Shown here: positions 30,501-64,000 of the stretch, piece after piece | How positions within the stretch are numbered: the stretch's first letter is position 1 | Layout of the letters: each line of letters starts with the position of its first letter | NCBI GenBank assembly: GCA_964019135.1 | Contig: OZ025260.1 | Location: forward strand, 34,342,254-34,406,253 | DNA length: 64,000 nucleotides | Reading direction: 5' to 3' | Origin: Arenicola marina | Taxonomy: Eukaryota; Annelida; Polychaeta; Arenicolidae | Notes under the pieces: model-generated | The model's input: the letters and a program-made list of their open reading frames with translations, nothing else | Database searches by the model: none | Told to the model about the DNA's origin: nothing | Position numbers and translations under genes: made by a program

Positions 30501-33500
30501 GAATGCTGGTGGGACTGGTAAGGGAGGTCTCTTCCTCCCAGGTCAATCAGCATCGTCAGCTGATGACTCTACCCTCAGTGAGCAGATTGGTGGTCTCACC
30601 ATTACCAGCCAGATGTCTGGCAAGACTGCAAGTCAAGATATGAGAAGTCTGGATGTGAGTAAAAAGTACAGGGATCCGGATAGGTAATATTACTCGTGAA
30701 TTGTGAAAGAGTGGGGTCATCATGGTACTGGTGTGTTGCCAGATATGGTGTATGTTTGGAGTTTTGCTGTCAGATATGTATCTACCACATATTGATTGCA
30801 TTCATGTCTGGGGAGGATATATAAGTGCTGTAAGCCATATATATAAATCCTGTTTAAACGTCAGAAATAATCCTTATAATAACAGAATGGAATAACTAAT
30901 GAATGATAATTACCTTTGATCAATGTTATGGTTGCGCCATTTTCTCTTGGTGCTATTCGTCGATGTTTTCAAATTGCTTCCATTTATTCATAATCATTGT
31001 TATTTCTGACTTTTCTGCAGAGTACCAATGTGGGCGCTCCCGAATTTGTGCCCAAAGCCAGCACTGCTTCTCGGAACTCTACCGGTATGACCCACAGCAC
31101 GAGCACGCCGTCCTTCATGTCCAGCTATGGGGCGGTGTCCGGCGTGGGGGGCAACAACCTGGGTCCCCACACCATCCCACAGGGTCAGCATCCACCAGCC
31201 TGCCACCCTCATAGACATGTACATGTATAGGACGAAATACACAGCTTTCTGATGTTCTGACATGTTTGTTGCCTTGCCCGCTTCTGTTATATTGGTTGCC
31301 CTCTGTGTCTTATGCTATTGAAATGGGGATTTTAAGATTCCGCTTTCCCGATTAAAAATCATTTATCCTGCATTTGCACCTAACCAGTATTCTAATTGGG
31401 TTTTGTACCGATGGTTATGTGTATAAAGGTCTACCTGCTTTGGAACACTTGATACGTCCATCTAAGGATAATGCCGTTATTGTTTAACATATCTCGGGCA
31501 TACCATGAATGGTGTACTCTGTATTTCAGGTCCGCCCTATTCCACGGCCAGTCCCATCAATAGTCCCCACCTCAGTCCCCAGGGGTCGCCACTGAGCCAC
31601 CGGCGGAAGTCCCCCGTCCCCCAGTTGGCCTCGCTGACGGCCACGCCACCCACGACGGCTGCCAACCCGACTGTGCAGGTAACCCCCTCCCCCCGTACAC
31701 AATAACTAAACGGCCCAGCTCCACACACATCGACTCCCTCTCCTCAGACAAAAAATGCCCTTTCCCCCTCACGACGCACAAACTGACCCTCCGCCCCCCT
31801 CCCCCCACACAGACAGTGACCATGTCCCTTGGCAGTTAATACCCGATTGTTCGTACACGTCGTTGCTTTTGTCGCTAATACCAAATGTGGCTCTTCTGCC
31901 CAAGGAGACATATATATAGACTTTAGTTCAGAACGATGACCAATCATTGAAGTGGTCTCTGAATTTTGTTGTTTTTCTTCCAGGAAAATGTTGGAGGTAC
32001 GACGTATTTCTACCGACAGGAAGACATTGAGACCCACCACCAGGGAGTGGTAAGTGACGTCTCTGTGATATGTTAGACATTGAGACCCACCACCAGAGAG
32101 TGGTAAGTGACGTCTCTGTGATATGTTAGACATTGAGACCCACCACCAGGGAGTGGTAAGTGACGTCTCTGTGATATGTTAGACATTGAGACCCACCACC
32201 AGAGAGTGGTAAGTGACGTCTCTGTGATATGTTGGACATTGAGACCCACCACCAGGGAGTGGTAAGTGACGTCTCTGTGATATGTTAGACATTGAGACCT
32301 ACCACCAGGGAGTGGTAAGTGACGTCTCTGTGATATGTTAAACTTCATGTATTATGTCGACTGTGTTTTCCTGAAAATTGGGACATCCTTAAGTGGAATT
32401 TTCTATTGCCGCCCTGTGTGTTAAATTATTGTGGGAGACACGTTTTGAAACAAATTTAGTATGAAAATGTGAGCTTTACACAACAAGGACGTATGGCCTC
32501 TTTAGTTATCATGAGTCTTGTCTGTCCAGGTGTTGCCGAACTTCACCATGTACCCGGGAATCCTGCCGCACATGGCTCACATGAAGCCCAAGAATAACCA
32601 GGCCTCCTTCTTCATGCCTGATGAACTCAAGATGGTATGAAGTACAGCGACGTGGCAATGTACATGTTAAGAGGAGGCGCTTTCCCTGCCAAAGATGCAT
32701 TGTTAAAAACACTGCATTAAACCCATGCTACAAGTTCCAGATCAAACCTTTTCTTTAATTCTGTATTTGATTGTTCGCTATATCCGAGCGTCGTTAAATA
32801 AGCAATAAGGCACTTTGAAGACCACTACGGCCTTCTGGGACTAAATATCTCTGGAGCTTTGAAGAGTACTGATCGACATTGTGGATCAGTGTTGTGATAT
32901 GGTTAGGTGAGCTGTGACCTGAATGACCTCTATCGTGGTTGACGTTGCAGGAGATCCTCAACAGACATTGTATGACAATGGTCCAGATTGATCCCGAGCA
33001 CAATCCAGGTAACGCGGGGCTGACACGTAATCCTGGCCGTGTACAGTCATTTAATTTATTCTTTGTCATATATCGAATGAACATTTAATATATTTGTTGG
33101 GAGTTCGTTCACGACATGGCTATTTGTTCTGATGGCACCATACGGCCTTACAGGACGATAAAGCCACATCAAAGCATATATTCTGTTGGCATGCCGTGTG
33201 CAGAGGTGTGTCTTGTCTTCATAATGTAAATTACCGGTATATTCTGAACAGAAACCGTGTGCGGTGGACAATATTTCCACACATTTTTCATTATATACGT
33301 TACCGGTATATTCAGTATATAAATCGCGGGCGGTCGATAATTTCCAGATTTTTCGCATACGGTAAATTACCGGTATACTCTGTAGATATCCCGCGGGCGG
33401 TCGACAACTACCAGGGTCTGTTTCCATTGGAACCTCCGTCGACTCACATGAGGAAGTCGAACACGTTTGGATACCAGACGACCGTCTACAAGGCCACAAA

Positions 33501-36500
33501 TACCAAAGATGGACTCATCTACTGTCTGCGACGGATACATGGTAAGGGCTTCATCTCGCACGCAACGCCTGGATCTAAAGGGACTGGGTCGTTTTTATAC
33601 TCGGAGAAATGTGAAAAGAAGGAGGAACCCAATAGTAACTGATTGGTAGTAATTATAAGTCCACCGTAGATGTGTATTCAACCATTTGTCCTTTGTTTTT
33701 TTGGACTTTGCTGAATGGTGTTCCCTTAGTATGAATAGAATACGACATGTACGAATAGTTCGGTTTTTGAATGACCAGGCGGCATGGGGCATCCTGCTAT
33801 CTTGGTGTGGAGGGTTCGACTCGTTACCTTGCGAACAAGTCGCAGGTTCGAACCCTGGGACGTGGATCTGATTGTTTCAGTCAACCCGAATTCATGGTAT
33901 TTGATGCTTCCATGAACCCGTATCAGTAAGTCTTACTTCTTATACATATTCACGAGGTGCTTCTTCCAGGGTACCGACTGATGAACAGCAAGAATGCCGA
34001 CCTGTGGAAGTGCATTGACCTCTGGAAGAAGATGCAGCAATCCAACATCGTTCAGCTTCGAGAGGTCTTCACCACGAAGGCATTTGGCGATCACTGTGAG
34101 TGGCATTCATTACGGTACTTGTCGGTTAATTACGATATTGTTGCCCAAATGTTTGATGACGATAATGTCGTCCATATGGTTAATGCCGATAATGTCGTCT
34201 ATCGGGTAATTGACGATAATGTCGTCTATCTGGTTAATGACGATAATGTCATTCTGGTTAATGATGATGATGTCGTCCCTCAGGTTAATGATGATAATGT
34301 CGTCCATCTGGTTAAGATGTTGCCTATCTGGGTAATGACGATAATGTCATTCTGGTTAATGCCGAAAATGTCATTCTGGTTAATGACGATAATGCCATTT
34401 TGGTTAATGACGATAATGTCGTTCTGGTTAATGTCTATCTGGTTAATAACGATAATGTCATTCTGGTTAATGATGATAATGTCATCTATCTGGTTAATGA
34501 CGATGATGTCATTCTGGTTAATGACTAATGTCTATCGGGTTAATGGCGATAATGTCATTCTGGTTAATGATGATAATGTCGTCCATCTGGTTAATGGCAA
34601 TAATGTCGTCCATCTGGTTAATGGCAATAATGTCGTCCATCTGGTTAATGACAATAATGTCCTGGTTAATGACGATAATGTAATTCTGGGTAATGACGAT
34701 TGTGTCGTCTATCTGGATAATGAGATAATGCCACTGTTATGATTATAAGCGATAATGTCATCCATCTGATTAATGGCAATGCTGACGTTCGTTAGTGAAT
34801 AAATCTAAAGTGAAGAATACATAAAAGTGAAACGATTGTGAATAATGCGCACGTTTATGAGGAGGGCGTTCCTAGGTCAGTAAGCAGACTGAGCTGCAGA
34901 TCAACAGGTCGTGGGTTCGCGCCCTGGTACCTGCATCTAGAGCATCTTTCATCGAACTCGACTTTATTGTCCCGGGAGGCCTTTTGGGCCTTGTTCAGCC
35001 TTTCATGTGTAAAAGAAAAGTGGCCTTAGACACTAGACGCTACGTGGAACATTTGTTACCGGGTTCAAGCACAGGTGCCTCAATCGTGGGTGGGTGGGGC
35101 GGGAGGGGGGTGGGGGCCGGCTTCACACATATGTCATATAAAGAGAGAAGGTAGGCAAAGCATTTTGCAGCCAGAAAACTCAGCCCGAACAACATCGGTC
35201 GATTTCGTCAACAAAATGCCACGACTGCGCGGTTTCTTCGCTTCACTCAATGCCTCGCCACTTTACTCACGAAAATATCACGTAATCCCATTCAAACACA
35301 CCTTCAAATCGCTGCATCAAGACATTTTTTCGCCAACTTTACGCGATTTTCACTGATGCCACTCACCATGGCCGTTGAGGTTTGTCAGTAACGCAGCGAG
35401 TATTTTGGAGCGTTCTCATTGGTTGTAACTGCTCTGTGGCTATCAGCCTTCTGATTGGTCAGAAAGAATCTGGCGGCTTTTTTTAAAATACATGCCTATA
35501 AAGTACACAGAGACGAAGTGAGGGGGGACGGGGGTTGAGCTCGGGGGCGGAGGAGGGGGAGTTACACTATTACACAAAAGTGATGGGGGGCAATTTCCGC
35601 GGTTGTCTTGATGCCTGAGAGAGCGGATATTTGTGGCTCTGGGGCGAGGGACTATGAAGTTTTTGATGACCGGGGAAGTGGGGGGCGGGGGCTCCACTGA
35701 ATACTTCTTACCGGGGGGCGGGTCCACGCCAAAAAAAAAGGCGGGGGGGGGTCACGGCTCAGATGGCCTACATTTTGCATTGAAAAAACGGCATTGGTCC
35801 TCAAAAAAGGGGGGACGTTCCCCTTTCGAGCAGATTTTCAAATTGGCGGATTTTGGCAGTGAAAAAAAGGGGGGAGGGCTTTACCGCGGACCCCCCCTAA
35901 ACTCAGGAATATATTCAGTACCCACCCCCCCCACCGGGAGGGCAAGGGGGGGGGGGAGGGGTCGTGTGGCCTAGTTCACGAAGCATTTTCAGTGCATTTG
36001 TAAATTTATGTCCTAACAATGACAATGAAAGTCAGTGAGCTCATGGGCGGCTGGATCAAAGAAATAAAAAACTGTACGATCCTCAATGTCGAATGTTGAA
36101 TTTTCAAATATCTCTGTGTCGTGTGTCGCCATTTACCCGTGCAGACCCCTATAAACTTTAATGCCAAAGGCACGACTCGATCAGCGCTACTTATTCTAAC
36201 GCCGTATCACCCCCTGCGAAAACTATTACTACATGTTAATCGATACGAGTACTTAAGGCGGGAGTACCAGTGATGGAACAGCCTGCAATGTAATTTGCAT
36301 ATGGACGAAGGAGCTTGCGAGAAAACGGCACACGCGAGGTTACAACCAATCAGAAGGCTATAAGAAATGCGCTGCGGCAGTCAACGGCCATGGTGAGCCG
36401 CATCAGTGAAAATCGAGTAAAGTTGGCGGAAAAATGTCTTGATGCAGCGATTTGAAGGTGTTTTTGAATGGGATTACGTGATATTTTCGTGAGTAAAGTG

Positions 36501-39500
36501 TTGAGGCATTGAGTGAAGCGAGGAAACCGCGCAGTCGTGGCATTTTGTTGACGAAATCGACCGATGTTGTTCGGGCTGAGTTTTCTGGCTGCAAAATGCT
36601 TTGCCTACCTTCTCTCTTTATATGACATATGTGTGAAGCCGGCCCCCGCCCCCCCACCCGCCCCACCCACCCACGATTGAGGCGCCTGTGGTTCAAGCTA
36701 CATTGGCACCCAAGAGGTTGATCTTGTGAATGAATAAAGTGCTGAAATTATATTGCATATGATTTCTTGATCATAATCACCTCCATAACGAGTGTACAGG
36801 CTACGACGAAAACGCTCTTTTCGTGTGTAATCTGCGTGTGGTTTATGAATACTGCCCCACACCTACCCCTGACTGACCGCCTCCTCTTCCCCTTTACAGC
36901 CATGGTCTTCGTGTACGACTTCCACCCCGGAGCCGAGACGCTGATGATGCGTCACTTCAGCAGCCCGGCCCATATTAACGGCTACTCCGGTCACCATGGC
37001 CACCACCGCCACCACAATCACCATGGCCACGGAGGGCACCACAACGGCCCCTATGAGGGCCCGAGCAGACCGTTTAGTTCAGATAAAGGTGGGTTCCTGC
37101 AGCATCTTTGGTGTTATCGGTGTCGGGTGCGCACTCAAGGAGTCATTGCATCTAGTGAACCCATTATTTTCTACACAAGAATGAAGATGAAATAGTTTTT
37201 GAAGCAGGGAAAACATCCTTACAAGGTATTTGTAAAGTATACAATTAAACATTAATGTAACATTAGCGTATAAAAATCAATATTAATTTAACTGTAGACT
37301 ATAAAATTTAAATGTTTTGGATTAAGGTATAAACTTAAACGTTACTCAAACTTTGCAATTAAACACTGATTTAGCATGGGGTGATAAAGCAAGAATAAGA
37401 CAGGACAGGATTGATGTTGTTGACGTAGGAGGAGGGCGGCAGCACAGCGGCCTCCTGCCCGAGAGTCTGCTGTGGACCTTCATCGTGCAGCTGACGGCGG
37501 CACTGCGCACCATCCACGCGCACGGCCTGGCCTGTCGTGTCCTCGACCCCACCAAGATACTGTTGACGGACAAATCACGGTAACGCTATTGATACCGCTG
37601 GCCACAGTGCGCTTCATGTCACATCCAGTGACGCTTATTCAATGGTAGTAAAGTGTCACTAAAGGATCGGGGCCACCGCCTCTGGTAGTTTGTAGACTCA
37701 CAACCCACCGCCTCTGGTAGCTTGTAGACTCACAACCCACCGCCTCTGGTAGCTTGTAGACTCACAACCCACCGCCTCTGGTAGCTTGTAGACTCCGAAC
37801 CCACCGCCTCTGGTAGCTTGTAGACTCCGAACCCACCGCCTCTGGTAGCTTGTAGACTCCGAACCAACCGCCTCTGGTAGCTTGTAGACTCCGAACCCAC
37901 CGCCTCTGGTAGCTTGTAGACTCCGAACCCACCGCCTCTGGTAGCTTGTAGACTCCGAACCCACCGCCTCTGGTAGCTTGTAGACTCCGAACCCACCGCC
38001 TCTGGTAGCTTGTAGACTCCGAACCCACCGCCTCTGGTAGCTTGTAGACTCCGAACCAACCGCCTCTGGTAGCTTGTAGACTCCGAACCCACCGCCTCTG
38101 GTAGCTTGTAGACTCCGAACCCACCGCCTCTGGTAGCTTGTAGACTCCGAACCAACCGCCTCTGGTAGCTTGTAGACTCACAACCCACCGCCTCTGGTAG
38201 CTTGTAGACTCACAACCCACCGCCTCTGGTAGCTTGTAGACTCACAACCCACCGCCTCTGGTAGCTTGTAGACTCACAACCCATCGCCTCTGGTACCTTG
38301 TAGACTCCGAACCCACCGCCTCTGGTAGCTTGTAGACTCACAACCCACCGCCTCTGGTAGCTTGTAGACTCCGAACCCACCGCCTCTGGTAGCTTGTAGA
38401 CTCACAACCCACCGCCTCTGGTAGCTTGTAGACTCACAACCCACCGCCTCTGTTAACTTGTGGACTTTTCCCATGGACCTAGCTCGGCCAACCAAGCTAT
38501 AACAGGGGAATTGGAGGCAAGTAACTGAAAAGGTGTGTGGTACATTCAACTTTCATTTGAGCGTGTGCAGCCGAAAGTTCACCTCAACTCAATATGGATT
38601 TTCGTGTAGAGGTTGGTTCATAGCGCAAAAAATTTGCCTTGTCGCCGGGACCTCTTGGAAGGTCAGGCACCTTGCACAAAGCACCACAAAGGTTTTGTAT
38701 AGCGACCTGAAGTGAGCGCCGCAATGCCGGAATAAGTGGCGAATTAATGGGACTGATAATCTTGCAGGATACGGCTGAACTGCGTCGGTATCTTCGACGT
38801 GTTGAGTTTTGACTCCAGTCAGGCCAACCCCCTGGCTGTCATTCCGCACTATCAGGTAACCTTGTTTCTATGCCGTATACACCTGCTGATCCCATACATA
38901 CGCCCCATGTCTTTATGCGAAGAAACTGAAGGGCATCTTGTTTCACTGTGTACAAACCTAATCCACCCAAACGGTGCATTTTTGTATTAATTGCATGTTG
39001 AAATATGGCAATAAGTGTTAATCCCCATGAACACGCACCGTTGGCGATTGTCACCATATCTATGAAACATTACTTGTTGCACCACACTTTTACATTTAGA
39101 ATGCCTTTGTTTGACTTCCTTGCCGGTATTTAATATTGTAATAAAGCTCTTTGGAATAATGATGTGCGTTATTGTACGACCGTGTGCCCGTCTTTTTCCG
39201 CCGCGCAGCAAGAGGACTTGGTTTCCCTGGGAAAGGTGTTGCTGGCACTGTCCTGCAACTCGCTGATCGCCATTCAGCGAGACCGCATGCAGACCAGCAT
39301 GGAAATCGTCGCCAGGAACTACTCCTCGGATCTCAAGAACCTCCTGATGTGAGTACATCCAGCGTGTGACTGTCGTGTTAGAACCTCCTGATGTGGGTAC
39401 ATCCAGCGTGTGACTGTCGTGTTAGAACCTCCTGATGTGAGTACATCCAGCGTGTGACTGTCGTGTTAGAACCTCCTGATGTGAGTACATACAGCGTGTG

Positions 39501-42500
39501 ACTGTCGTGTTAGAACCTCCTGATGTGAGTACATACAGCGTGTGACTGTCGTGTTAGAACCTCCTGATGTGAGTACATCCAGCGTGTGACTGTCGTGTTA
39601 GAACCTCCTGATGTGAGTACATCCAGCGTGTGACTGTCGTGTTAGAACCTCCTGATGTGAGTACATACAGCGTGTGACTGTCGTGTTAGAACCTCCTGAT
39701 GTGAGTACATCCAGCGTGTGACTGTCGTGTTAGAACCTCCTGATGTGAGTACATCCAGCGTGTGACTGTCGTGTTAGAACCTCCTGATGTGAGTACATAC
39801 AGCGTGTGACTGTCGTGTTAGAGCCTCCTGATGTGAGTACATCCAGCGTGTGACTGTCGTGCTAGAACCTCCTGATGTGAGTACATACAGCGTGTGACTG
39901 TCGTGTTAGAACCTCCTGATGTGGGTACATCCAGCGTGTGACTGTCGTGTTAGAACCTCCTGATGTGAGTACATCCAGCGTGTGACTGTCGTGTTAGAAC
40001 CTCCTGATGTGAGTACATCCAGCGTGTGACTGTCGTGTTAGAACCTCCTGATGTGAGTACATACAGCGTGTGACTGTCGTGTTAGAACCTCCTGATGTGG
40101 GTACATCCAGCGTGTGACTGTCGTGTTAGAACCTCCTGATGTGGGTACATCCAGCGTGTGACTGTCGTGTTAGAACCTCCTGATGTGGGTACATCCAGCG
40201 TGTGACTGTCGTGTTAGAACCTCCTGATGTGAGTACATCCAGCGTGTGACTGTCGTGTTAGAACCTCCTGATGTGGGTACATCCAGCGTGTGACTGTCGT
40301 GTTAGAACCTCCTGATGTGGGTACATCCAGCGTGTGACTGTCGTGTTAGAACCTCCTGATGTGAGTACATCCAGCGTGTGACTGTCGTGTTAGAACCTCC
40401 TGATGTGAGTACATACAGCGTGTGACTGTCGTGTTAGAACCTCCTGATGTGGGTACATACAGCGTGTGACTGTCGTGTTAGAACCTCCTGATGTGGGTAC
40501 ATACAGCGTGTGACTGTCGTGTTAGAGCCTCCTGATGTGAGTACATCCAGCGTGTGACTGTCGTGTTAGAACCTCCTGATGTGGGTACATACAGCGTGTG
40601 ACTGTCGTGTTAGAACCTCCTGATGTGAGTACATACAGCGTGTGACTGTCGTGTTAGAACCTCCTGATGTGAGTACATCCAGCGTGTGACTGTCGTGTTA
40701 GATGATCGGAGTGTGTGTGTGTGTGTGTGGGGGGGGGGGACCCTGATGTGAGTACATCCAGCGTGTGACTGTCGTGTTAGATGATCGGAGTGTGTGTGTG
40801 TGTGTGGGGGGGGGGGGGGGGTGAGGGGGACGTAGCCCTACCGACCTGGACCGTAGAGCAGAGAACAGGTTGCGGGTTCAATCCCCACCTTTGTCTTTCC
40901 GTTTTCCATTCTTTCATCCCATTGTCCCGCAGTGTTGCTTGGTCTGGTTTAGGTTGGTTGGTTGGTTATTCAGGACGCTTTAACCACGTTTGGTCATATC
41001 GCGTCAATGGGAGTAGGAAGGGAGAGTGGAGCCATGTCCCCGGTGGCTTGGTCCGGTTTAGTCCATGTGTGTACGGGGGTGGCCTAAAACAGCAATCTTC
41101 ATTTCTTCAGGTATCTTGGCCCATCTGTTTGTATTTTCCAGTTACCGCCTGAGCAGTGCCGACCGGTGACGGGTTCGAACCCGACCTGTGTCGCGGTCCC
41201 TATCTCTTACATTCCTCTCCTTGACCTAGTTACGGCCATGTGTACACAAAGGTGGCCTAAAACAAGTCATCCATCGATTCGTTCCCCAGCTACCTGCTGA
41301 GCTATACCAACCGTGTACAGGTTCAAACCTAACCTCTGTATCGGTCCTTCCCAGCTACCTGCTGAGCAATACCAACCGTGTACAGGTTCAAACCTAACCT
41401 CTGTATCGGTCCTTCCCAGCTACCTGCTGAGCAATACCAACCGTGTACAGGTTCAAACCTAACCTCTGTATCGGTCCTTCCCAGCTACCTGCTGAGCAAT
41501 ACCAACCGTGTACAGGTTCAAACCTAACCTCTGTATCGGTCCTTCCAAAGCTACCTGCTGAGCAATACCAACCGTGTACAGGTTCAAACCTAACCTCTGT
41601 ATCGGTCCTTCCCAGCTACCTGCTGAGCAATACCAACCGTGTACAGGTTCAAACCTAACCTCTGTATCGGTCCTTCCCAGCTACCTGCTGAGCAATACCA
41701 ACCGTGTACAGGTTCAAACCTAACCTCTGTATCGGTCCTTCCCAGCTACCTGCTGAGCAATACCAACCGTGTACAGGTTCAAACCTAACCTCTGTATCGG
41801 TCCTTCCCAGCTACCTGCTGAGCAATACCAACCGTGTACAGGTTCAAACCTAACCTCTGTATCGGTCCTTCCCAGCTACCTGCTGAGCAATACCAACCGT
41901 GTACAGGTTCAAACCTAACCTCTGTATCGGTCCTTCCCAGCTACCTGCTGAGCTATACCAACCGTGTACAGGTTCAAACCTAACCTCTGTATCGGTCCTT
42001 CCCAGCTACCTGCTGATCAATACCAACCGTGTACAGGTTCAAACCTAACCTCTGTATCGGTCCTTCCCAGCTACCTGCTGAGCAATACCAACCGTGTACA
42101 GGTTCAAACCTAACCTCTGTATCGGTCCTTCCCAGCTACCTGCTGAGCAATACCAACCGTGTACAGGTTCAAACCTAACCTCTGTATCGGTCCTTCCCAG
42201 CTACCTGCTGAGCAATACCAACCGTGTACAGGTTCAAACCTAACCTCTGTATCGGTCCTTCCCAGCTACCTGCTGAGCTATACCAACCGTGTACAGGTTC
42301 AAACCTAACCTCTGTATCGGTCCTTCCCAGCTACCTGCTGAGCAATACCAACCGTGTACAGGTTCAAACCTAACCTCTGTATCGGTCCTTCCCAGCTACC
42401 TGCTGAGCAATACCAACCGTGTACAGGTTCAAACCTAACCTCTGTATCGGTCCTTCCCAGTTACCTGCTGAGCAATACCAACCGTGTACAGGTTCAAACC

Positions 42501-45500
42501 TAACCTCTGTATCGGTCCTTCCCAGCTACCTGCTGAGCAATACCAACCGTGTACAGGTTCAAACCTAACCTCTGTATCGGTCCTTCCCAGCTACCTGCTG
42601 AGCTATACCAACCGTGTACAGGTTCAAACCTAACCTCTGTATCGGTCCTTCCCAGCTACCTGCTGAGCAATACCAACCGTGTACAGGTTCAAACCTAACC
42701 TCTGTATCGGTCCTTCCCAGCTACCTGCTGAGCAATACCAACCGTGTACAGGTTCAAACCTAACCTCTGTATCGGTCCTTCCCAGCTACCTGCTGAGCAA
42801 TACCAACCGTGTACAGGTTCAAACCTAACCTCTGTATCGGTCCTTCCCAGCTACCTGCTGAGCAATACCAACCGTGTACAGGTTCAACCTAACCTCTGTA
42901 TCGGTCCTTCCCAGCTACCTGCTGATCAATACCAACCGTGTACAGGTTCAAACCTAACCTCTGTATCGGTCCTTCCCAGCTACCTGCTTAGCAATACCAA
43001 CCGTGTACAGGTTCAAACCTAACCTCTGTATCGGTCCTTCCCAGCTACCTGCTGAGCAATACCAACCGTGTACAGGTTCAAACCTAACCTCTGTATCGGT
43101 CCTTCCCAGCTACCTGCTGAGCAATACCAACCGTGTACAGGTTCAAACCTAACCTCTGTATCGGTCCTTCCCAGCTACCTGCTGAGCAATACCAACCGTG
43201 TACAGGTTCAAACCTAACCTCTGTATCGGTCCTTCCCAGCTACCTGCTGAGCAATACCAACCGTGTACAGGTTCAAACCTAACCTCTGTATCGGTCCTTC
43301 CCAGCTACCTGCTGAGCAATACCAACCGTGTACAGGTTCAAACCTAACCTCTGTATCGGTCCTTCCCAGCTACCTGCTGAGCAATACCAACCGTGTACAG
43401 GTTCAAACCTAACCTCTGTATCGGTCCTTCCCAGCTACCTGCTGAGCAATACCAACCGTGTACAGGTTCAAACCTAACCTCTGTATCGGTCCTTCCCAGC
43501 TACCTGCTGAGCAATACCAACCGTGTACAGGTTCAAACCTAACCTCTGTATCGGTCCTTCCCAGCTACCTGCTGAGCAATACCAACCGTGTACAGGTTCA
43601 AACCTAACCTCTGTATCGGTCCTTCCCAGCTACCTGCTGAGCAATACCAACCGTGTACAGGTTCAAACCTAACCTCTGTATCGGTCCTTCCCAGCTACCT
43701 GCTGAGCTATACCAGCCGTGTACAGGTTCAAACCTAACCTCTGTATCGGTCCTTCCCAGCTACCTGCTGAGCTATACCAACCGTGTACAGGTTCAAACCT
43801 AACCTCTGTATCGGTCCTCCCCAGCTACCTGCTGAGCAATACCAACCGTGTACAGGTTCAAACCTAACCTCTGTATCGGTCCTTCCCAGCTACCTGCTGA
43901 GCAATACCAACCGTGTACAGGTTCAAACCTAACCTCTGTATCGGTCCTTCCCAGCTACCTGCTGAGCAATACCAACCGTGTACAGGTTCAACCTAACCTC
44001 TGTATCGGTCCTTCCCAGCTACCTGCTGATCAATACCAACCGTGTACAGGTTCAAACCTAACCTCTGTATCGGTCCTTCCCAGCTACCTGCTTAGCAATA
44101 CCAACCGTGTACAGGTTCAAACCTAACCTCTGTATCGGTCCTTCCCAGCTACCTGCTGAGCAATACCAACCGTGTACAGGTTCAAACCTAACCTCTGTAT
44201 CGGTCCTTCCCAGCTACCTGCTGAGCAATACCAACCGTGTACAGGTTCAAACCTAACCTCTGTATCGGTCCTTCCCAGCTACCTGCTGAGCAATACCAAC
44301 CGTGTACAGGTTCAAACCTAACCTCTGTATCGGTCCTTCCCAGCTACCTGCTGAGCAATACCAACCGTGTACAGGTTCAAACCTAACCTCTGTATCGGTC
44401 CTTCCCAGCTACCTGCTGAGCAATACCAACCGTGTACAGGTTCAAACCTAACCTCTGTATCGGTCCTTCCCAGCTACCTGCTGAGCAATACCAACCGTGT
44501 ACAGGTTCAAACCTAACCTCTGTATCGGTCCTTCCCAGCTACCTGCTGAGCAATACCAACCGTGTACAGGTTCAAACCTAACCTCTGTATCGGTCCTTCC
44601 CAGCTACCTGCTGAGCAATACCAACCGTGTACAGGTTCAAACCTAACCTCTGTATCGGTCCTTCCCAGCTACCTGCTGAGCAATACCAACCGTGTACAGG
44701 TTCAAACCTAACCTCTGTATCGGTCCTTCCCAGCTACCTGCTGAGCAATACCAACCGTGTACAGGTTCAAACCTAACCTCTGTATCGGTCCTTCCCAGTT
44801 ACCTGCTGAGCAATACCAACCGTGTACAGGTTCAAACCTAACCTCTGTATCGGTCCTTCCCAGCTACCTGCTGAGCTATACCAACCGTGTACAAGTTCAA
44901 ACCTAACCTCTGTATCGGTCCTTCCCAGCTACCTGCTGAGCAATACCAACCGTGTACAGGTTCAAACCTAACCTCTGTATCGGTCCTTCCCAGCTACCTG
45001 CTGAGCAATACCAACCGTGTACAGGTTCAAACCTAACCTCTGTATCGGTCCTTCCCAGCTACCTGCTGAGCAGCTCGAACCGGATGCGGAGTATCAATGA
45101 CACGATGCCCATGATCGGCGCCCGCTTCTACACTCAGCTCGACAACGTGCAGCTGAGGACGGACACCGTGGAGAGCGAACTGGCCAAGGTCAGTGCAGAG
45201 GTCTCCCTTCCTTCTCGATGGCATAAGTCGAGCTGAAGTCTGATGTGGTCATTTCGATGTGTATTTCATGTTATATGTTGACAACTTTTTGAAATAAATC
45301 ATACCGCAAAAGGGGGTTATGGCAAACATACACGAAGTGTGGTAGAGCGGGTCTTAGAAAGGAATAAAGGGCCCGTGCAGGGAAGTTTAGAAACACGTAA
45401 TTCCTACCATGTGAATCTAAAGATCGTTTCGCAAAGCGTTACGAGCTCGTAACCCTCTCTTTGATATGCTTATTTAACGACAATCGTAAGTTGACGAGCA

Positions 45501-48500
45501 ACGGAAATAAGCATTATACAGAGATTATATATTAGTGTTCGCGCAATTATTTGGGAGCCAATATTGTTCAAATTAATGTCTGCGATATATTTATGATCAA
45601 TGCCCCATTCCTCTTCTGCCCAGCAATACAATTGTTTGACTTTCTGAGCCCATGTTGCGAGATCTTGGTGACGTGACCCCCCTGATCTCTCGTTAATCCG
45701 GGTTGTTGTTTGCTGCTGCTTGGCAGGAGGTGGAGAACGGACGACTGCTGCGGCTCATCTGTAAGCTGGGAATGATCAACGAGCGACCAGAGTGAGTCCA
45801 CGGCTGGGTCAAATGTCATGTACCACGTGTATGGAAACCACGTGGCCCCGCCGTCTTGTCCGTTACCATGGCGATTGTTTGGGTTTGCGCATCACGTGGT
45901 CTGCACGCATGGTTTGTGTGTGTGTGTTCCTTCGACACGTCCTGTCGCGTCGTTGTCCATGTAGCTACAAGGTAGTTACACTGTCTGTCTATTTTAGTTG
46001 CTATAGCAACCGTGTCTTGCTAATTTAGTTTCTATGACCCAGATGTCTTACTCTTGCTGCAGGTATCTTCTTCAGCGTAGTTACTATAGCAACCGCGTTC
46101 CTCCTTGTAATTACTATAGCCCCTATATCCTTCTCTTGTAGTTAAAAAATCCATCATGTTCTTCTATTGTGGCTACTATAGGCACCGTGTTTTCAGCCTT
46201 GCAGTTACTAAAGCTACCATAGCCTTCTATTGAAGTTACTTTATCTGCCGTCCTTCTATAGTACTTATTATTGCAATCAGTTTGCCTGCAGCCGCCACAC
46301 CTTTTAATTGTTACCATAGTCACCATGTCCTACTGATTTCCCTGTAGCCACCGACTCTCAAGTGTAATTATAGCCACTACATCTTCCAGTTGTTACTATA
46401 TCAGCAGCATCTTCCAGTAGTGTAGTTACTATATCGCCGTGTCTTCCAGTAGTTACTATATCCGCCCCATGTTCCAGTAGTTACTATATCGCCGTGTCTT
46501 TCTCCTCGAGGTTCAACATGGACCCGGCGTGGTCGGAGACTGGCGACCGCTACATGCTGAAGCTGTTCCGGGACTACCTGTTCCACCAGGTGGACGAAAA
46601 CGGCGCCCCCTGGATCGACCTTGCTCACGTCCTCCAATGCCTTAACAAGGTAAGGTCATGCCCCCAGTGCCTTAACAAGGTAAGGTCACGCCCCCAGTGC
46701 CATAACATAGTAAGATCACGCCCCCAGCGCCTTGACAAGGTAAGGTCATCCCCAGTGCCTTAACGAGGTAAGGTCACGTCCTCCAATGCCTTAACAAGGT
46801 CAGGTCACGCCCCAGGGCCTTAACACGGTATGGTCACGCCCCCAGTGCCTTAACAAGATAAGGTCATGCTCCCAATGCCTTAACAAGGTAAGGTCATGCC
46901 CCCAGTGCCTTAACAAGGTAAGGTCATGCCCCCAGTGCCTTAACAAGGTAAGGTCATGCCCCCAGTGCCATAACAAGGTAAGGTCACATCCCCAGTGCCT
47001 TAACAAGATAAGGTCACGCTCCCAATGCCTTAACAAGGTAAGGTCATGCCCCCAGTGCCTTAACGAGGTAAGGTCACGCCCCAGGGCCTTAACAAGGTAA
47101 GGTCACGCTCCCAATGCCTTAACAAGGTAAAGTCACGCTCCCAATGCTTTAACAAGGTAAGGTCATGCCCCCAGTGCCTTAACAAGGTAAGGTCATGCCC
47201 CCAGTGCCTTAACAAGGTAAGGTCATGCCCCCAGTGCCTTAGCAAGGTAAGGTCATGCCCCCAGTGCCTTAACAAGGTAAGGTCGCGCTCCCAGTGAATT
47301 AACAAGGTAAGGTCATGCCTCCAGTGCCTTAACAAGGTAAGGTCATGCCCCCAGTGCCTTAACAAGGTAAGGTCACATCCCCAGTGCCTTAACAAGATAA
47401 GGTTACGCTCCCAATACCTTAACAAGATAAGGTTACGCTCCCAATACCTTAACAAGGTAAGGTCACGCTCCCAATGCCTTAACAAGGTAAGGTCATGCCC
47501 CCAGTGCCTTAACAAGGTAAGGTCACGCCCCAGGGCCTTAACAAGGTAAGGTCACGCTCCCAATGCCTTAACAAGGTAAGGTCATGCCCCTAGTGCCTTA
47601 AAAAGGTAAGGTCATGCCCCCAGTGCCTTAACAAGATAAGGTCATGCCCCCAGTGCTTTAACAAGGAAAGGCCACGCCCCAGTGCCTTAAGAAGGTAAGG
47701 TCACGCCCCCAGTGCCTTAACACGGTAAGGTCACATCCCCAGTGCCTTAACAAGGTAAGGTCACATCCCCAGTGCCTTAACAAGATAAGGTTACGCTTCC
47801 AATGCCTTAACAAGGTAAGGTCACGCTCCCAATGCCTTAACAAGGTAAGGTCATGCCCCCAGTGCCTTAACAAGGTAAGGTCACGCCCCAGGGCCTTAAC
47901 AATGTAAGGTCACGCTCCCAATGCCTTAACAAGGTAAGGTCACGCTCCTAATGCCTTAACAAGGTAAGGTCATGCCCCCAGTGCCTTAACAAGGTAAGGT
48001 CATGCCCCCAGTGCCTTAGCAAGATAAGGTCATGCCCCCAGTGCTATAACAAGGAAAGGCCACGCCCCAGTGCCTTAACAAGGTAAGGTCACGCCCCCAG
48101 TGCCTTAACAAGGTAAGGTCACATCCCCAGTGCCTTAACAAGGTAAGGTCACATCCCCAGTGCCTTAACAAGGTAAGGTCACGCTCCCAGTGCATTAACA
48201 AGGTAAGCATATGCCCCAGTGCCTTAACAAGTCACGTCTGTCAGTGCCTTAACGAGGCAAGGTCACGTCCTTCTTTACCTTATATGATTATTGGATGATA
48301 ATGCTCGTTCCATAACCATTTGATGTTAATGTTCATTAGATGACTAGTTGGTGATGTTGTCTGGTTGTAGTTGGACTGCGGGTCTCCGGAGAAGCTGTGT
48401 TTGATGTCGCGGGATGAGCAGAGCGTGCTCGTCGTGTCCTACGCCGAGCTCAAGCAGTGCTTCGCCTCCGCCTTCGCCGAGCTGCTCCAGGCTGGCGCTG

Positions 48501-56139: not shown

Positions 56140-56295
56140 CTTGTGCGTTTTGATAGGTCATGACGCGTATTATTAAGTGCTCCGTTCGGTGACTTTACCA
56201 GACGTCAGAGCAAATAACATTGTGCATAAAACGACCAATGACATGACGCGTATTATTAAAATGTTCGGGGAGTTATGACGTCAGATTAAATGGCA
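56140..56295. repeat. Short imperfect direct duplication downstream of ADCK2
   Basis: CATGACGCGTATTATTAA occurs at about 56159 and 56244, with GACGTCAGA(G/T) about 40 bases after each. The two arms are about 85 bp apart. Confidence 0.55.
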
Positions 56296-56398
56296 TTTGC
56301 CTCACATCCCTGTGAACTCGCGTAGTAACTGAGTAACACGCAGTAAATAATGTCAAAAATAATATTTCTTAATTTAACTTAACTGATACGAGATGAGG

Positions 56399-59300
56399 TT
56401 ATGACAATAGGATGGGCTTGGCTCGCGCCAGGAGGTCCAGTTCTGGATCCAGGGACCGGCCTAGGCCCTCCAGGACGTAAATAGCGATCAGGACCGAAGC
56501 GAAGTTGCTCTCCATCTTCACGCGGTGCCGGCACAAGCAACGGAAGACTTTAGACAGCAGCTCGCCCGCATGGATCTGGTTGGGTCGGGGGTTGCGGGAG
56601 CATGGCGTGTACGGGTGTATGTGTGTGTGTGGGGGGGGGGGGGGGGGGGGGGCAGGAGGATGGGGGTTAAAGGGTGGCAGATCAAGTACAATCAAATTAG
56701 CTCAATCTAAAAATATACATATATAACTATACCTTCCATTATGATGGAAAGAAGTTAATTAAAAAAAAAATTATATAAATCTTAATAAATTATATCCATA
56801 CAAATATAAATAAACAAGATGATTGAATAATACATAAGATAATCGTACACATTTTAGTTTGTTATCTTATACACTCTTCTTATCTCGCGTTAATTTATTA
56901 TAATGTCGCAGTTGGAATATGATTGCGTGGTCAGACCCGCTGTCGTCGTTATACATCTGATGTAAAAGGCCATCTTAAACCAAACCCACGGGTCATGTGA
57001 GTTCTTTTCGAGTACCGGACATCGTTACGGACGGACCAAACACCCACGTGGTCCCAAGAGAGCGCCGATCCTACCTTTCCCAGCTTGATGGTTTGCTGTC
57101 TCGCCTCCATGACGACTTCGCTCAAATCCTTCTTAAACGCAGTCACATCCTTACACTCATTGTAGCGCGAATGCTTCAACATCAGTTCAGCAACTTGATC
57201 ACCCTGGCGGACAAAACGTACATTAAAGGAACCACACAAAAAGAAAAGGAAATCAAATCCCTATTCAATTGCCGATGCATTAAAACTGCGTAATCGACTA
57301 CAATCTACACGTACTTGTTCAGCAGCATAACGTGTTCTTCGCCTGCATAGTCAGATACTGTTAGCGACCACCTCGATCGGGCTGGCGAATAAGACCGCCA
57401 CTAGCGGGTCCCGCCTGACGCGCGTCACACACGTTCTTGTGAATCGCTCCACTCCACTGCAGCTCCACCCTGGCTCCGCCCCACTCTACCCCGTCCGCCC
57501 CCGCCTCACCCTACCCGTCCGCCCCCGCCCCACCCCACCCCACACACCTCTCCTATGATGACGGCCGTGAAAACGGCCTTGAAGTTCTCGAGGTCGCGGT
57601 CGCCGAGCGTGGCCGTCATGCCGGTGTCCAGGAAGATTAGGCGCAGCGGACACTCCACCTCCTTCACGTTGACGATCACAGTGTCACAGATGTCAACCAG
57701 CATCAGCTTGCTCTCCTCCTGAATAATGGAGGGGGGGGGGGGGGTGAACCATGGCAACGGTTAGCGGGGTGTTGGAGTGGGGAGGGGGTCACTGTCACAG
57801 CTTGCTCTCCTCCTGAATGATGGGGGGGGGCGATGCCACATTATTCAGTGGGGGGGGGGGGGGGGGTGCTAGTCCTACCAGCCGCTACATGTGTCACGAT
57901 GAATATCCTGATGTTTTATATATCAGTCCTCTTCTGTTGCTTCATTCTACTTTTCGTTACACAGCGATCACTTAATGTATATCGTACTAACACAGGTTTA
58001 TTCAAAGATATAATTTTGATTGAACAATATTTGTTTGTTATTTACATTTACAACACACGACACATTTACAATACGGATTGTTGTTGAGTCACCTGTGGTA
58101 GGTAGTCACTAGCATTCTGCACGAGTATGTTGCCAGGGTGTAAATCTCCATGAACGAAGTTGTCAACAAATATCTGAAAATTAAATAAATGTTAGTACAA
58201 TTTGTCAATATATATATATGCATGTACGCTCTTGCAACCGTTCTATACCTCAAAGTCCAGCGTGTTATATAAGTACTTATGCCTTCCAAATGTGCCAATA
58301 CGGATGTATTTCCAGCTGGCATGTTTCAGACATTTCTTTGCTGTTTTAGTGTTCACGGATGGAACGAACCTTGACATGAAAGGATGAAACCGACCAGACA
58401 GAGGTTTGTCTTGACACGACCTCTCGATCACTCATTAATAGCGAGCATGTATTTATACACACTAAAAGCTGATGAAATTAATGAAACATTGGGGTTTTAG
58501 GCCGCTTTTGAGTCAACGAAGAGAAAATTGGGCCATGAAACCTCCCGAGACAATGACATGGGGCTACATGAAATTTGCCCCAGATGCAGGTGCCAGGATT
58601 CGAACCCACGACCTCTCGATCTGCAGCTCAGCCTGCTTACCCACTGAGCTAGGGAGGCTCTCTGTCAGGGTTCGAACCCACGACCTATTGATGTACAGCT
58701 CAGCCTGCTTACTCACTGAGCTAGGGAGGCTCTCTGTCAGGGTTCGAACCCACGACCTATTGATGTACAGCTCAGCCTGCTTACTCACTGAGCTAGGGAG
58801 GCTCTCTGTCAGGGTTCGAACCCACGACCTATTGATGTACAGCTCAACCTGCTTACCCACTGAGCTAGGGAGGCTCCCCAGCTGCTACAGAACTGAAGCT
58901 GATGACATATATATTCAACCATCAGTACCGACTGGGCCACGAATCGTCCGGAAAGTGGACACGGTCGGCCGACTAGCCACTCAGGCCCTCACCAGAGATT
59001 CGATCCCCTTACCATTTGCAGCAGTGCGTCCACGCCTAGGGCTGCCAGTCGCTCCCTGAGCCCTTCAGGCAGAAGCTCATTCGAGTCCTTCAGGTAGTCC
59101 GATATCATTTCGCCCTCCTGCAAACACAGCAAGCACCCACAAGTACAGTGAACATGTGCTCCCCAAGGCATCTTACATACACACTGACACATGATAATTA
59201 CCGACAGTAAACCAAAAGATAACATTACCAACTATATATCAAGCTATATTTGCGAAGGTCTATGTGTAAAGTGATATATTTTGGACCTAGCAGCGACAAC

Positions 59301-62300
59301 GTTTTTATGCCTACAAGTAAAATACCAAATATTGGTTGAAAGCAAATCCAGTAATTTTCAAGTGAAACTACAAGCACTATTCTAATACCACCCAAGCTTA
59401 AGCACGTGGTGTATACTTCATGCCCTATTCTAAAACTTATTCATAATATTCTATTGCGTGCTGGGAGTCGTGTGTATCTGGTATGACAACATCAGGCCAC
59501 TGCCTGTGAAGGCTAAATTGGGACACGAAGCTTCTCGAGACAATGAGGTGGCGCGGGGTTAAACATGTCCCAGGTGCCAGGGCGTGAACCCATGACCGGT
59601 TTGTCTGCAGCCGAATGTAATAGTGAAGGGCCATTCAGCCACCCACTCGCCGCATGCTCACCTCGAACGTCTCCAGGAGAACTGTCCTCTTGCAGTAGGG
59701 ACGGACTGGGCGCGGGAAGCGAATGTTCGGATTGTCCTGGAAGTTGTCCGCAAACTGTTCCAGGCAATTGGCTTCGAAGCGCAGGTCTATCTGTAATACA
59801 CATATAGATGCAATGAAGGAGGGTTGTGTGGTTGGGGAGATGGTGTGGTGATTAAAATCTGTAATACACATATAGATGCAAGGATGGATGGCTGTGGGGT
59901 TGGGGAGATGGTGTGGTGATTAAAATCTGTAATACACATATAGATGCAATGAAGGAGGGTTGTGTGGTTGGGGAGATGGTGTGGTGATTAAAATCTGTAA
60001 TACACATATAGATGCAAGGATGGATGGCTGTGTGGTTGGGGAGATGGTGTGGTGATTAAAATCTGTAATACACATATAGATGCAATGAAGGAGGGTTGTG
60101 TGGTTGGGGAGATGGTGTGGTGATTAAAATCTGTAATACACATATAGATGCAAGGATGGATGGCTGTGGGGTTGGGGAGATGGTGTGGTGATTAAAATAT
60201 GTGCTACACATATAGATGCAAGGATGGAGGGCTGTGTGGTTTGGGAGATGGTGTGGTGATTAAAATATGTGATACACATATAGATGCAAGGATGGATGGC
60301 TGTGGGGTTGGGGAGATGGTGCGGTGATTAAAATCTGTAATTAACATATAGATGCAAGGATGAAGGGCTGTGTAGTTTTGGAGATGGTGTGGTGATTAAA
60401 ATCTGTGATACACATATAGATGCAAGGATGGATGGCTGTGTGGTTGGGGAGATGGTGTGGTGATTAAAATCTGTAATACACATATAGATGCAAGGATGGA
60501 TGGCTGTGTGGTTGGGGAGTTGGTGTGATGATTAAAATCTGTAATACACATATAGATGCAAGGATGAGGGGCTGTGTAGTTTTGGAGATGGTGTGGTGAT
60601 TAAAATCTGTGATATACATATAGATGCAAGGATGGATGGCTGTGGGGTTGGGGAGATGATATGGTAATTAAAATCTGTGATATACGTATAGATGAAGCTG
60701 CCTTCACAAATCTATCTTTTCACTTCGCATTTGTCAATTGTCTGCAAATGAGCTGTTCATATTCAACCATTTTCGAAATTATTACGGCAAGCTATCTGCT
60801 ACAATAAAACTGATGGAGGCTGATGCTAACCTGTCTCGTCATCAAGTCGGAGAATTCTGCGACGCACTCCTTGAGGCTGAGCCACCGCAGACTTGGTATC
60901 ATGCACTCCCCCAGCACAGCCAGCGCCTTCAGGATCTTCAGGTCCATTGTGACAGACTTGTACACCCCTGGGTGCAGAACCTGGGGGCGGAGTACCCATG
61001 GCAACAGATACACGCCTGATATTCATTCATAGGCATGGATCATTAAGTTCGGTTACAAACGCCGACCGTGTCAATTCAGTTTCTTTTGAAAACACACAGA
61101 GGGTGGGTGTTGGAAAATCATCCTTGACATCAGTTTCACCATGTACATGACAGACTTCAGTACTATTGAATGGAGTAAACACGTACGCATAAAGCATTAC
61201 TATCAGAGGGTGGGAGTTGGAATAGCATCCTTGGTGGGCTGTAGATATATCATTAGATAAAATGTGGTTAACCTCTTTAACATCAACAAGAGGCTTGAAG
61301 GCCAGAGAACTGTTCATTTAACTTAAACATGTCATGTAACATCCATAATATATCCTGAAATTTATTACGTAATCAGTCAGTTATATAGAACGTTTTACAC
61401 TCCTTTTGCCAGGCCAGAAATGATGTGTCCTTAGTTACGCCTATCCTATGTGAACCCTGTGTGTATAGAGCTAGACCACCCTTGATACCCCCCTCCCCCC
61501 ATAAACCCACCCCCCCACTCACCTTCACGGCGAGATCTCATCATCCTCGCCTGCCTGAGGCGGCGTGTAAGCCTCGCTTTGTTACCCCCCCACACACCCA
61601 CCCCCCCACTCACCTTCACGGCGACTGGCAGCAGCGGGATCTCATCATCCTCGCCTGCCTGGGGCGGCGGGTAAGCCTCGCTTTGTTACCCCCCCCCCCC
61701 CACTCACCTTCACGGCGACTGGCAGCAGCGGGATCTCATCATCCTCGCCTGCCTGGGGCGGCGGGTAAGCCTCGCTTTGTTACCCCCTCCCCCCCCACAC
61801 ACACACCCACCCCCCCACTCACCTTCACGGCGACTGGCAGCAGCGGGATCTCATCATCCTCGCTTGCCTGGGGCGGCGGGTAAGCCTCGCTTTGTTACCC
61901 CCCCACACACCCACCCCCCCACTCACCTTCACGGCGACTGGCAGCAGCGGGATCTCATCATCCTCGCCTGCCTGGGGCGGCGGGTAAGCCTCGCTTTGTT
62001 ACCCCCCCCCCCACACCCCCCCCCCCCCCCACTCACCTTCACGGCGACTGGCAGCAGCGGGATCTCATCATCCTCGCCTGCCTGGGGCGGCGGGTAAGCC
62101 TCGCTTTGTTACCCCCTCCCCCCCCACACACACACCCACCCCCCCACTCACCTTCACGGCGACTGGCAGCAGCGGGATTTCATCATCCTCGCCTGCCTGA
62201 GGCGGCGGGTAAGCCTCGCTTTGTTACCCCCCCCCCCCACTCACCTTCACGGCGACTGGCAGCAGCGAGATCTCATCATCCTCGCCTGCCTGAGGCGGCG

Positions 62301-64000
62301 GGTAAGCCTCGCTTTGTTACCCTCCCACACACCCACCCCCCCACTCACCTTCACGGCGACTGGCAGCAGCGGGATCTCATCATCCTCGCCTGCCTGGGGC
62401 GGCGGGTAAGCCTCGCTTTGTTACCCCCCCCCCCCACTCACCTTCACGGCGACTGGCAGCAGCGAGATCTCATCATCCTCGCCTGCCTGGGGTGGCGGGT
62501 AAGCCTCGCTTTGTTACCCCCCCCCCCCACTCACCTTCACGGCGACTGGCAGCAGCGAGATCTCATCATCCTCGCCTGCCTGAGGCGGCGGGTAAGCCTC
62601 GCTTTGTTACCCCCCCCCCCCCCCACTCACCTTCACGGCGACTGGCAGCAGCGGGATCTCATCATCCTCGCCTGCCTGGGGCGGCGGGTAAGCCTCGCTT
62701 TGTTACCCCCCCCCCCCCCACTCACCTTCACGGCGACTGGCAGCAGCGGGATCTCATCATCCTCGCCTGCCTGGGGCGGCGGGTAAGCCTCGCTTTGTTA
62801 CCCCCTCCCCCCCCACACACACACCCACCCCTCCACTCACCTTCACGGCGACTGGCAGCAGCGGGATCTCATCATCCTCGCCTGCCTGGGGCGGCGGGTA
62901 ACCCTCGCTTTGTTACCCACCCCCCCCCCGCCCACTCACCTTCACGGCGACTGGCAGCAGCGGGATCTCATCATCCTCGCCTGCCTGGGGCGGCGGGTAA
63001 GCCTCGCTTTGTTACCCCCTCCCCCCCCACACACACACCCACCCCCCCACTCACCTTCACGGCGACTGGCAGCAGCGGGATTTCATCATCCTCGCCTGCC
63101 TGGGGTGGCGGGTAAGCCTCGCTTTGTTACCCCCTCCCCCCCCCACACACACACCCACCCCCCCACTCACCTTCACGGCGACTGGCAGCAGCGGGATTTC
63201 ATCATCCTCGCCTGCCTGAGGCGGCGGGTAAGCCTCGCTTTGTTACCCTCCCACACACCCACCCCCCCACTCACCTTCACGGCGACTGGCAGCAGCGGGA
63301 TTTCATCATCCTCGCCTGCCTGGGGTGGCGGGTAAGCCTCGCTTTGTTACCCCCCCCCCCCCCACTCACCTTCACGGCGACTGGCAGCAGCGAGATCTCA
63401 TCATCCTCGCCTGCCTGAGGCGGCGGGTAAGCCTCGCTTTGTTACCCCCCCACACACCCTCCCCCGCCACTCACCTTCACGGCGACTGGCAGCAGCGGGA
63501 TCTCATCATCCTCGCCTGCCTGAGGCGGCGTGTAAGCCTCGCTTTGTTACCCCCCCACACACCCACCCCCCCACTCACCTTCACGGCGACTGGCAGCAGC
63601 GGGATTTCATCATCCTCGCCTGCCTGAGGCGGCGTGTAAGCCTCGCTTTGTCACCCCCCCACACACCCACCCCCCCACTCACCTTCACGGCGACTGGCAG
63701 CAGCGGGATCTCATCATCCTCGCCTGCCTGGGGCGGCGGGTAAGCCTCGCTTTGTTACCCCCCCACACACCCTCCCCCGCCACTCACCTTCACGGCGACT
63801 GGCAGCAGCGGGATCTCATCATCCTCGCCTGCCTGAGGCGGCGGGTAAGCCTCGCTTTGTTACCCCCCCACACACCCTCCCCCGCCACTCACCTTCACGG
63901 CGACTGGCAGCAGCGGGATTTCATCATCCTCGCCTGCCTGGGGTGGCGGGTAAGCCTCGCTTTGTTACCCCCCCCCCCCCCACTCACCTTCACGGCGACT
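56399..64000 (-). CDS. ADCK2: ADCK2, aarF/UbiB-family mitochondrial kinase-like protein, C-terminal part
   Basis: Member of the ADCK/UbiB atypical kinase family linked to coenzyme Q and mitochondrial lipid metabolism (family knowledge). Exons, 5' to 3' on the minus strand: one of the reiterated VAVK-coding copies in 61510-64000, then 60980-60831, 59790-59662, 59117-59013, 58173-58093, 57718-57548, 57203-57075 and 56575-56399. All are phase 0. These seven exons encode 313 residues. Motifs in order: VLHPGVYKSV directly after the VAVK lysine, the family segment WLSLKECVAEFSDLM, IDLRFEANCLEQF, VDNFVHGDLHPGNIL (catalytic loop), IFLDTGMTATL (DTG in the DFG position) and the hallmark MESNFASVLIAIYVLEGLGR near the stop. 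Human ADCK2 is 626 aa, so roughly half is beyond the right edge. Which VAVK copy is really spliced cannot be told. ADCK1 and ADCK5 fit less well. Confidence 0.92.
57700..57835 (-). repeat. Duplicated ADCK2 acceptor region
   Basis: CTTGCTCTCCTCCTGAAT(A/G)ATGG occurs at 57708 and again at about 57801, each followed on the plus strand by a long G run. The first includes the genuine acceptor (AG at 57720-57719) and the first bases of the exon; the second is a single extra copy. Another G run follows at 57850-57866. Confidence 0.75.
58470..58890 (-). mobile_element. tRNA-derived SINE with four tandem heads
   Basis: On the minus strand the tRNA-like head (CCTCCCTAGCTCAGTGAGTA, AGC, ... GGTCGTGGGTTCGAACCC) is repeated four times with a 72-bp period (58600-58877). 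One body follows, with CTGGCACCTGCATCTGGGGC and CATTGTCTCGGGAGG, ending near 58480. The A-box (TAGCTCAGTGAGTAAGC) and B-box (GGTTCGAACCC) are both excellent. It sits in an ADCK2 intron in the sense direction. Confidence 0.8.
59480..59615 (-). mobile_element. SINE copy, partial
   Basis: The minus strand shows GGTCATGGGTTCACGCCCTG, GCACCTGGGACATG and CATTGTCTCGAGAAGC, the same order as the bodies at 34861 and 58470 but more diverged and without a clear A-box. Confidence 0.6.
59789..60690 (-). repeat. 68-bp array copying an ADCK2 3' splice site, about 13 units
   Basis: On the minus strand each unit ends GCATCTATATGTGTATTACAG followed by AT. The last unit runs into the genuine exon starting ATAGACCTGCGC at 59790. 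Most copies keep the terminal CAG; a few (for example near 60200 and 60268) have changed it. Confidence 0.93.
61510..64000 (-). repeat. Reiterated ADCK2 exon segment with donor, at least 25 units, open at right edge
   Basis: On the minus strand each unit of about 92-118 bp reads CTTACCCGCCGCCCCAG, then 45 bases encoding AGEDDEIPLLPVAVK, then donor GTGAGTGGGGG, a G-rich stretch of variable length and TAACAAAGCGAGG. In ADCK2 the VAVK lysine precedes VLHPG, which is exactly where the next exon starts (60980). Units begin on the plus strand at about 61517, 61609, 61702, 61816, 61920 and on to 63980. The unit nearest the next exon (61517-61566) lacks 13 of these bases and loses the frame. The plus-strand proline/histidine-rich frames are by-products. 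Confidence 0.95.

Follow-up and report, generated by a model that had tools for sequence, protein, structure and literature searches.

A window of 64,000 nucleotides from the annelid Arenicola marina (assembly GCA_964019135.1, contig OZ025260.1, positions 34,342,254 to 34,406,253 of the forward strand) contains eight tandem repeats that sit at exon-intron junctions and copy the splice site found there. Their units measure 53, 70, 44, 65, 30, 94, 68 and 104 bp, and all of them fall in two genes, PAN3 and an ADCK2-like gene, within 32 kb. We observed the arrays themselves, their position on modelled junctions and proteins that stay colinear across them, whereas the copied sites were not specially conserved. 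The most probable explanation, to which we assign a probability of roughly 0.7, is that they are 'mirage' minisatellites: random tandem duplications that spanned exon edges, were expanded by ordinary repeat turnover and have been tolerated. As repeats they are plainly beyond chance, as repeats at junctions only weakly so.

All splice junctions are those of gene models built in this analysis; untranslated exons lie outside these models. Arrays were called with Tandem Repeats Finder (TRF), which did not report the 70 bp and 94 bp repeats, and the exon bases per array were obtained from the TRF edge relative to the modelled exon edge. The original prediction listed seven arrays that copy splice sites. 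All seven were present, six of them (53, 44, 65, 30, 68 and about 104 bp) by TRF and the 70 bp one by a junction scan and alignment. To that list we added a two-copy 94 bp acceptor duplication at 57718 in ADCK2 and, at the PAN3 stop codon, an array of 64 bp units. The two genes and their repeats are as follows:

27596 to 48532, plus strand: PAN3 gene from start codon to stop codon, 18 coding exons modelled (exon models; Pan3_PK 1.1e-64, zf-CCCH 1.3e-09; PAN3 chains).
32022 to 32340, plus strand (PAN3): 53 bp array of 6 copies, with donor GTAAGT and 28 exon bases; authentic donor after 32049 (TRF).
33224 to 33432, plus strand (PAN3): degenerate repeat of about 70 bp, 3 copies, the last being the authentic acceptor of the exon at 33386 (junction scan and alignment).
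39336 to 40702, plus strand (PAN3): 44 bp array of 31 full copies, with donor GTGAGT and 13 exon bases; authentic donor after 39348 (TRF).
41285 to 45072, plus strand (PAN3): 65 bp array, 58 full copies, acceptor CCCAG; authentic exon starts at 45059 (TRF).
46625 to 48231, plus strand (PAN3): 30 bp array of 53 full copies, with donor GTAAGG and 25 exon bases; authentic donor after 46649 (TRF).
48523 to 48836, plus strand: 4.9 copies of a 64 bp unit, lying across the PAN3 stop codon and beginning in the last 10 coding bases; not a splice site (TRF).
56399 to 64000 and extending beyond 64000, minus strand: 3' part of the ADCK2-like gene, 7 full exons and the exon end repeated in the 104 bp array (Pfam ABC1 1.7e-35).
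57690 to 57842, minus strand (ADCK2): two-copy 94 bp acceptor duplication; authentic exon starts at 57718, going down (22/24 bases).
59789 to 60694, minus strand (ADCK2): 68 bp array, 13 full copies, acceptor ATTACAG and 2 exon bases; authentic exon starts at 59790 (TRF).
61530 to 64000, minus strand (ADCK2): array of about 104 bp, units of 93-116 bp, 24 anchored units, exon end ...PVAVK and donor GTGAGT (TRF).

As predicted, the units copy real splice sites on both strands: donors in the case of the 53, 44, 30 and about 104 bp units and acceptors in the case of the 65, 68 and 70 bp units. The donor 9-mer was identical in 6/6 copies of the 53 bp array, 21/31 of the 44 bp array and 35/53 of the 30 bp array, and the acceptor 21-mer in 54/58 copies of the 65 bp array and 8/13 of the 68 bp array. 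A single PAN3 intron carries the 44 bp donor array at one end and the 65 bp acceptor array at the other. The exon share of the 65 bp array is 14 bases, or about 27 if diverged homologous bases are included. This share had been put at 2 to 26 bases per unit (more in ADCK2), a range that is slightly low; the 68 bp array has 2 and the 53 bp array 28. For the 70 bp repeat 18/24 bases matched at an offset of 67 bp, copies 3 and 1 are 80% identical over 45 bases, and by eye about 28 exon bases are shared. It is missing from the TRF output because its copies are only about 76-80% alike.

Because the 104 bp array has not ended at base 64000, the authentic ADCK2 donor copy lies beyond the window. The unit contains at least 45 nt of exon-type sequence, reading AGEDDEIPLLPVAVK. 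An exact block of 45 nt between CAG and GTGAGT was found in 22/24 anchored units, in three sequence types; the block is open in phase 0 and reads AGEDDEI(P/S)LLPVAVK. The CAG in front of it is a candidate acceptor, the upstream exon being beyond the window. The other two anchored units comprise one with a single-base change in the searched pattern and the last one, which has a short deletion.

These arrays are new members of a phenomenon that has already been named and described in amphioxus. The units of the 53, 44, 65, 30 and 68 bp arrays cross modelled junctions and hold the GT or AG of the splice site, and the 104 bp unit contains an exon end with its donor, the authentic copy lying outside the window. 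Donor copies of the human 6-16 (IFI6) minisatellite are said to be used. Its multiple splice donors, to judge by the title of Turri et al. 1995, resemble the arrays found here. In amphioxus, passages of PMC3087553 describe the 'mirage' repeats of globin genes, cite Adh3, and state that many units contain AG or GT and that splicing is regular; passages of PMC3902484 add the genes TnC and PGBD5. Across Adh3, the globins BflGb6 and BflGb9, TnC and PGBD5 the unit lengths given in these passages are 10-160 bp (PMC3087553, PMC3902484). In comparison, PAN3 and ADCK2 together carry eight repeats of this type in a span of 32 kb, with up to 58 full copies, all read from one genomic sequence. Internal tandem repeats of human segmental duplications are similar in that minisatellites alter the length of exons or introns and may have an effect where the two meet, but in the part of PMC2812944 that covers them they have units of about 30 bp, 4 repeats on average and lie in coding sequence in half of the cases. 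Intron gain by tandem duplication (the Rogers model; potato RdRp), as outlined in part of PMC4974935, likewise duplicates an intron end, the adjoining exon and the splicing signals, whereas here existing introns are lengthened. PAN3 and ADCK2 can be read through using existing introns with the arrays inside them, and no new intron bounded by duplicated segments was seen in the models of these two genes.

We then compared the proteins obtained with the exon-proximal sites to solved structures. For PAN3 the alignment to human PAN3 (9qtu) was free of gaps at the 53, 70, 44/65 and 30 bp junctions, and the alignment to 4bwp at the 44/65 and 30 bp junctions. The ADCK2 protein was compared to the bacterial-type ABC1 chain 7cy2, and neither the 104 bp nor the 68 bp junction showed a gap; this alignment does not reach the 94 bp junction. 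Since the proteins are colinear at six array junctions and at the 70 bp one, the exon-proximal copy, i.e. the first donor or the last acceptor, should be the working site. Use of the other copies would break the frame or add a stop codon in 140 of the 142 cases tested: 5/5 for the 53 bp array, 30/30 for the 44 bp, 37/39 for the 30 bp, 56/56 for the 65 bp, 11/11 for the 68 bp and 1/1 for the 94 bp repeat. These numbers refer to 39 of the 53 full 30 bp copies and 56 of the 58 full 65 bp copies (pattern matches), and to 11 copies of the 68 bp array. Both exceptions belong to the 30 bp array, where two copies, adding 30 and 90 bases, stay open in frame. For the 70 bp repeat we searched for a productive upstream AG and found none among the three tested AGs (0/3).

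Column conservation was evaluated for five arrays (53, 44, 30, 65 and 68 bp), leaving out the 70, 94 and 104 bp repeats. GT or AG was intact in 6/6 full copies of the 53 bp array, 31/31 of the 44 bp, 44/53 of the 30 bp, 58/58 of the 65 bp and 11/13 of the 68 bp array. Depending on the array, 59-90% of all dinucleotides were kept equally well or better. The splice-site columns scored 1.000 compared to 0.985 for the other columns in the 53 bp array, 0.964 compared to 0.987 in the 44 bp, 0.995 compared to 0.993 in the 65 bp and 0.949 in both cases in the 68 bp array. Among the five, a lean towards retention was seen in the 30 bp array only, and even there GT (44/53) was less well kept than the median dinucleotide (0.925). 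Selection on the copied splice sites thus receives no support from column conservation in these arrays. The 65 bp copy that adjoins the real exon departs from the consensus in six exon positions, yet the array copies remain alike; the exon piece has thus drifted from the gene, and the array evolves in concert. Concerted evolution is the usual behaviour of minisatellites.

The question of whether junctions are favoured also involves the third gene modelled in the window:

13949 to 6513, minus strand: BPI/LBP-like gene (Pfam LBP_BPI_CETP 5e-26); the model is out of frame at the exon beginning at 9012.

The original prediction held that arrays seeded at random would rarely overlap a junction. This was not supported: with the arrays collapsed the introns are short, and the chance that a randomly placed seed unit overlaps a junction is 9-35%, varying with unit length and gene. 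For this seed null one unit was placed at random in the gene and every array was shrunk to one unit, which we consider the fair null because arrays inflate introns. It was applied to the 14 genic arrays with a copy number of about 2.7 or more, a set without the 70 and 94 bp duplications, which TRF did not report. We dropped the TRF rows of about two copies within the gene spans (12170-12211, 36991-37044 and 37232-37306) as well as overlapping rows of the same array, and the unit lengths of mixed arrays were chosen by hand (34124-34730 was set to 51). We also scanned for near-duplicates, defined as 18/24 bases matched within 400 bases, excluding gene ends and junctions inside arrays, which left 63 junctions. 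There was no excess at junctions outside the arrays, with 2/63 compared to 2.9% of 2120 intron positions; in exons near-duplicates were much rarer (0.24% of 416 positions). A further scan collapsed the arrays to two copies and ended ADCK2 at 61500, hence without the 104 bp array. Against the unhalved intron rate it gave P = 0.40, and P = 0.17 at the strictest threshold of 20/24 bases. A uniformity test of the exon shares gave P = 0.149, but the shares of the 70, 94 and 104 bp repeats were set by eye and so it is not relied on. As for a junction hotspot, the seed null, the near-duplicate scan without arrays and the two-copy-collapsed scan leave an excess that is weak at best. Of the proposal that either a mechanism or selection acts at junctions, a weak excess of arrays remains; neither special GT/AG conservation in the five arrays nor an excess of near-duplicates outside the arrays was found.

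Under the mirage reading tandem duplications would arise throughout a very repeat-rich region; repeat birth is common here, as arrays cover 45% of the window (by the array list used here). Selection would remove duplications inside coding exons, whereas those over a splice junction or stop codon would survive, since the original mRNA can still be made from the outermost site, which is the first donor or the last acceptor. The survivors would then expand by ordinary tandem-repeat turnover, and the extra splice sites would be passengers that the splicing machinery has to ignore. The sole TRF repeat wholly inside a modelled exon (36991-37044) also speaks for this reading, its 27 bp unit being divisible by three. 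The 64 bp array sits on a stop codon and not on a splice site, so what the arrays have in common appears to be the limit of coding constraint; this array agrees with survival at the coding edge and disagrees with a splice-specific process.

Several results weigh against this reading. The use of exon-proximal sites was deduced from protein colinearity, not RNA, and the 30 bp array keeps its donor columns somewhat better than its other columns (0.956 compared to 0.908). The number of junction arrays exceeds the seed null: for the 14 genic arrays 2.3 hits were expected and 5 observed (P = 0.061), or 6/14 if the 104 bp array is counted (P = 0.016). For the 12 arrays with at least 3 copies we obtained P = 0.041 (0.009 if the 104 bp array is counted), and for the 8 arrays with at least 10 copies P = 0.034 (0.005); all of these values are post hoc, from a window chosen for this feature, and flatter the excess. 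With arrays collapsed to two copies 6/71 junctions qualify compared to a halved intron rate of 3.7% (P = 0.049), and 5/71 at 20/24 bases (P = 0.017 against the halved rate). Finally, PAN3 and ADCK2 hold 8 junction repeats at 48 junctions and the BPI-like gene none at 24 (P = 0.046). Junctions could be hotspots at which splicing, transcription or the AG-GT sequence raises the rate of starting tandem duplications, as the array excess (P = 0.061 to 0.005 depending on the choice of arrays) and the PAN3 intron with arrays at both ends would suggest. We nevertheless hold this to be unlikely: small duplications show no excess at junctions outside arrays, the excess was identified post hoc, in a window picked for the feature, 0/24 junctions of the BPI-like gene are affected, one array lies on a stop codon, and the exon bases per unit range from 2/68 to 25/30, so no fixed break point is seen. 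A modest hotspot may be compatible with the 14 arrays. Distinctly unlikely in our judgement is the stronger version, in which exon-intron junctions are true birth sites of minisatellites in this lineage, perhaps by damage linked to transcription and splicing or by short AG-GT repeats, and new exons can be made out of some units; candidates for such exon birth are the 45 nt phase-0 block of the 104 bp ADCK2 array (22/24 anchored units) and the 30 bp PAN3 unit.

That selection retains junction arrays, with spare or repeated splice sites aiding splicing or regulating the gene, appears very improbable. Many copies do match the authentic local site (54/58 in the 65 bp and 35/53 in the 30 bp array) and the 30 bp donor columns are slightly better kept, but GT/AG is no better kept than a typical dinucleotide in the five arrays, the GT of the 30 bp array falls below the median, and nearly all copies would be unproductive if used. 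Some arrays are long and very alike (mean column identity 0.993 for the 65 bp array), and one amphioxus mirage is described in part of PMC3087553 as aberrantly assembled in the draft genome, as would be expected if copies had been multiplied or collapsed during assembly. Such an artefact is extremely improbable for the arrays here, given that variants occur in irregular order among the copies and the coding frames are intact on both sides, though copy numbers could still be wrong.

The window offers a dense natural case in which splice sites have been copied. One PAN3 intron has 31 donor copies at one end and 58 acceptor copies at the other, and the outermost must win for a correct protein. 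It is thus a good test bed for the choice of splicing among identical sites, for intron lengthening and for exon birth.

The identity of PAN3 is backed by the solved PAN3 chains 9qtu (1e-201) and 4bwp (3.6e-155), which match the window gene. The start of its exon 3 was set to 30463, and the joined frame was checked to be open from exon 6 to the stop, not through exons 1-5. The repeat at 36991-37044 forms two copies in a His-rich exon stretch that is missing from the solved PAN3 chains. In one PAN3 intron an inverted pair (35064-35378 and 36381-36696) is 95.6% identical over 316 bases and is possibly a mobile element. The minus-strand gene of the ABC1 family is presumably ADCK2. One of its introns contains a 72 bp array (58594-58876) on no junction, whose unit resembles by eye the head of a tRNA-derived short interspersed nuclear element, with a box-B-like GGTTCGAACCC. 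The G+C content was 0.561 for coding sequence and 0.423 for the remaining non-array sequence.

Other arrays had been proposed as a contrast that does not copy splice sites. Those with units of 38, 43, 31 (at 20833), 18 and 32 bp indeed lie on no modelled junction, but another 31 bp array (843-5672) belongs to this group only doubtfully: its plus strand contains 34 GAGGTGAGT and 104 GTGAGT, its other strand no GTGAGT. With each copy resembling a strong donor, it may be another donor repeat whose exon lies outside the models. Around the BPI-like gene we noted two inverted repeats. An inverted copy of the 43 bp unit (13964-14010, about 79-87% over 42-52 bases) is located between the start codon and the 6.3 kb array of that unit (14022-20353), and a 43-base stretch with a BPI-like acceptor (6516-6558) recurs inverted 4 kb away (10585-10627) with 97.7% identity.

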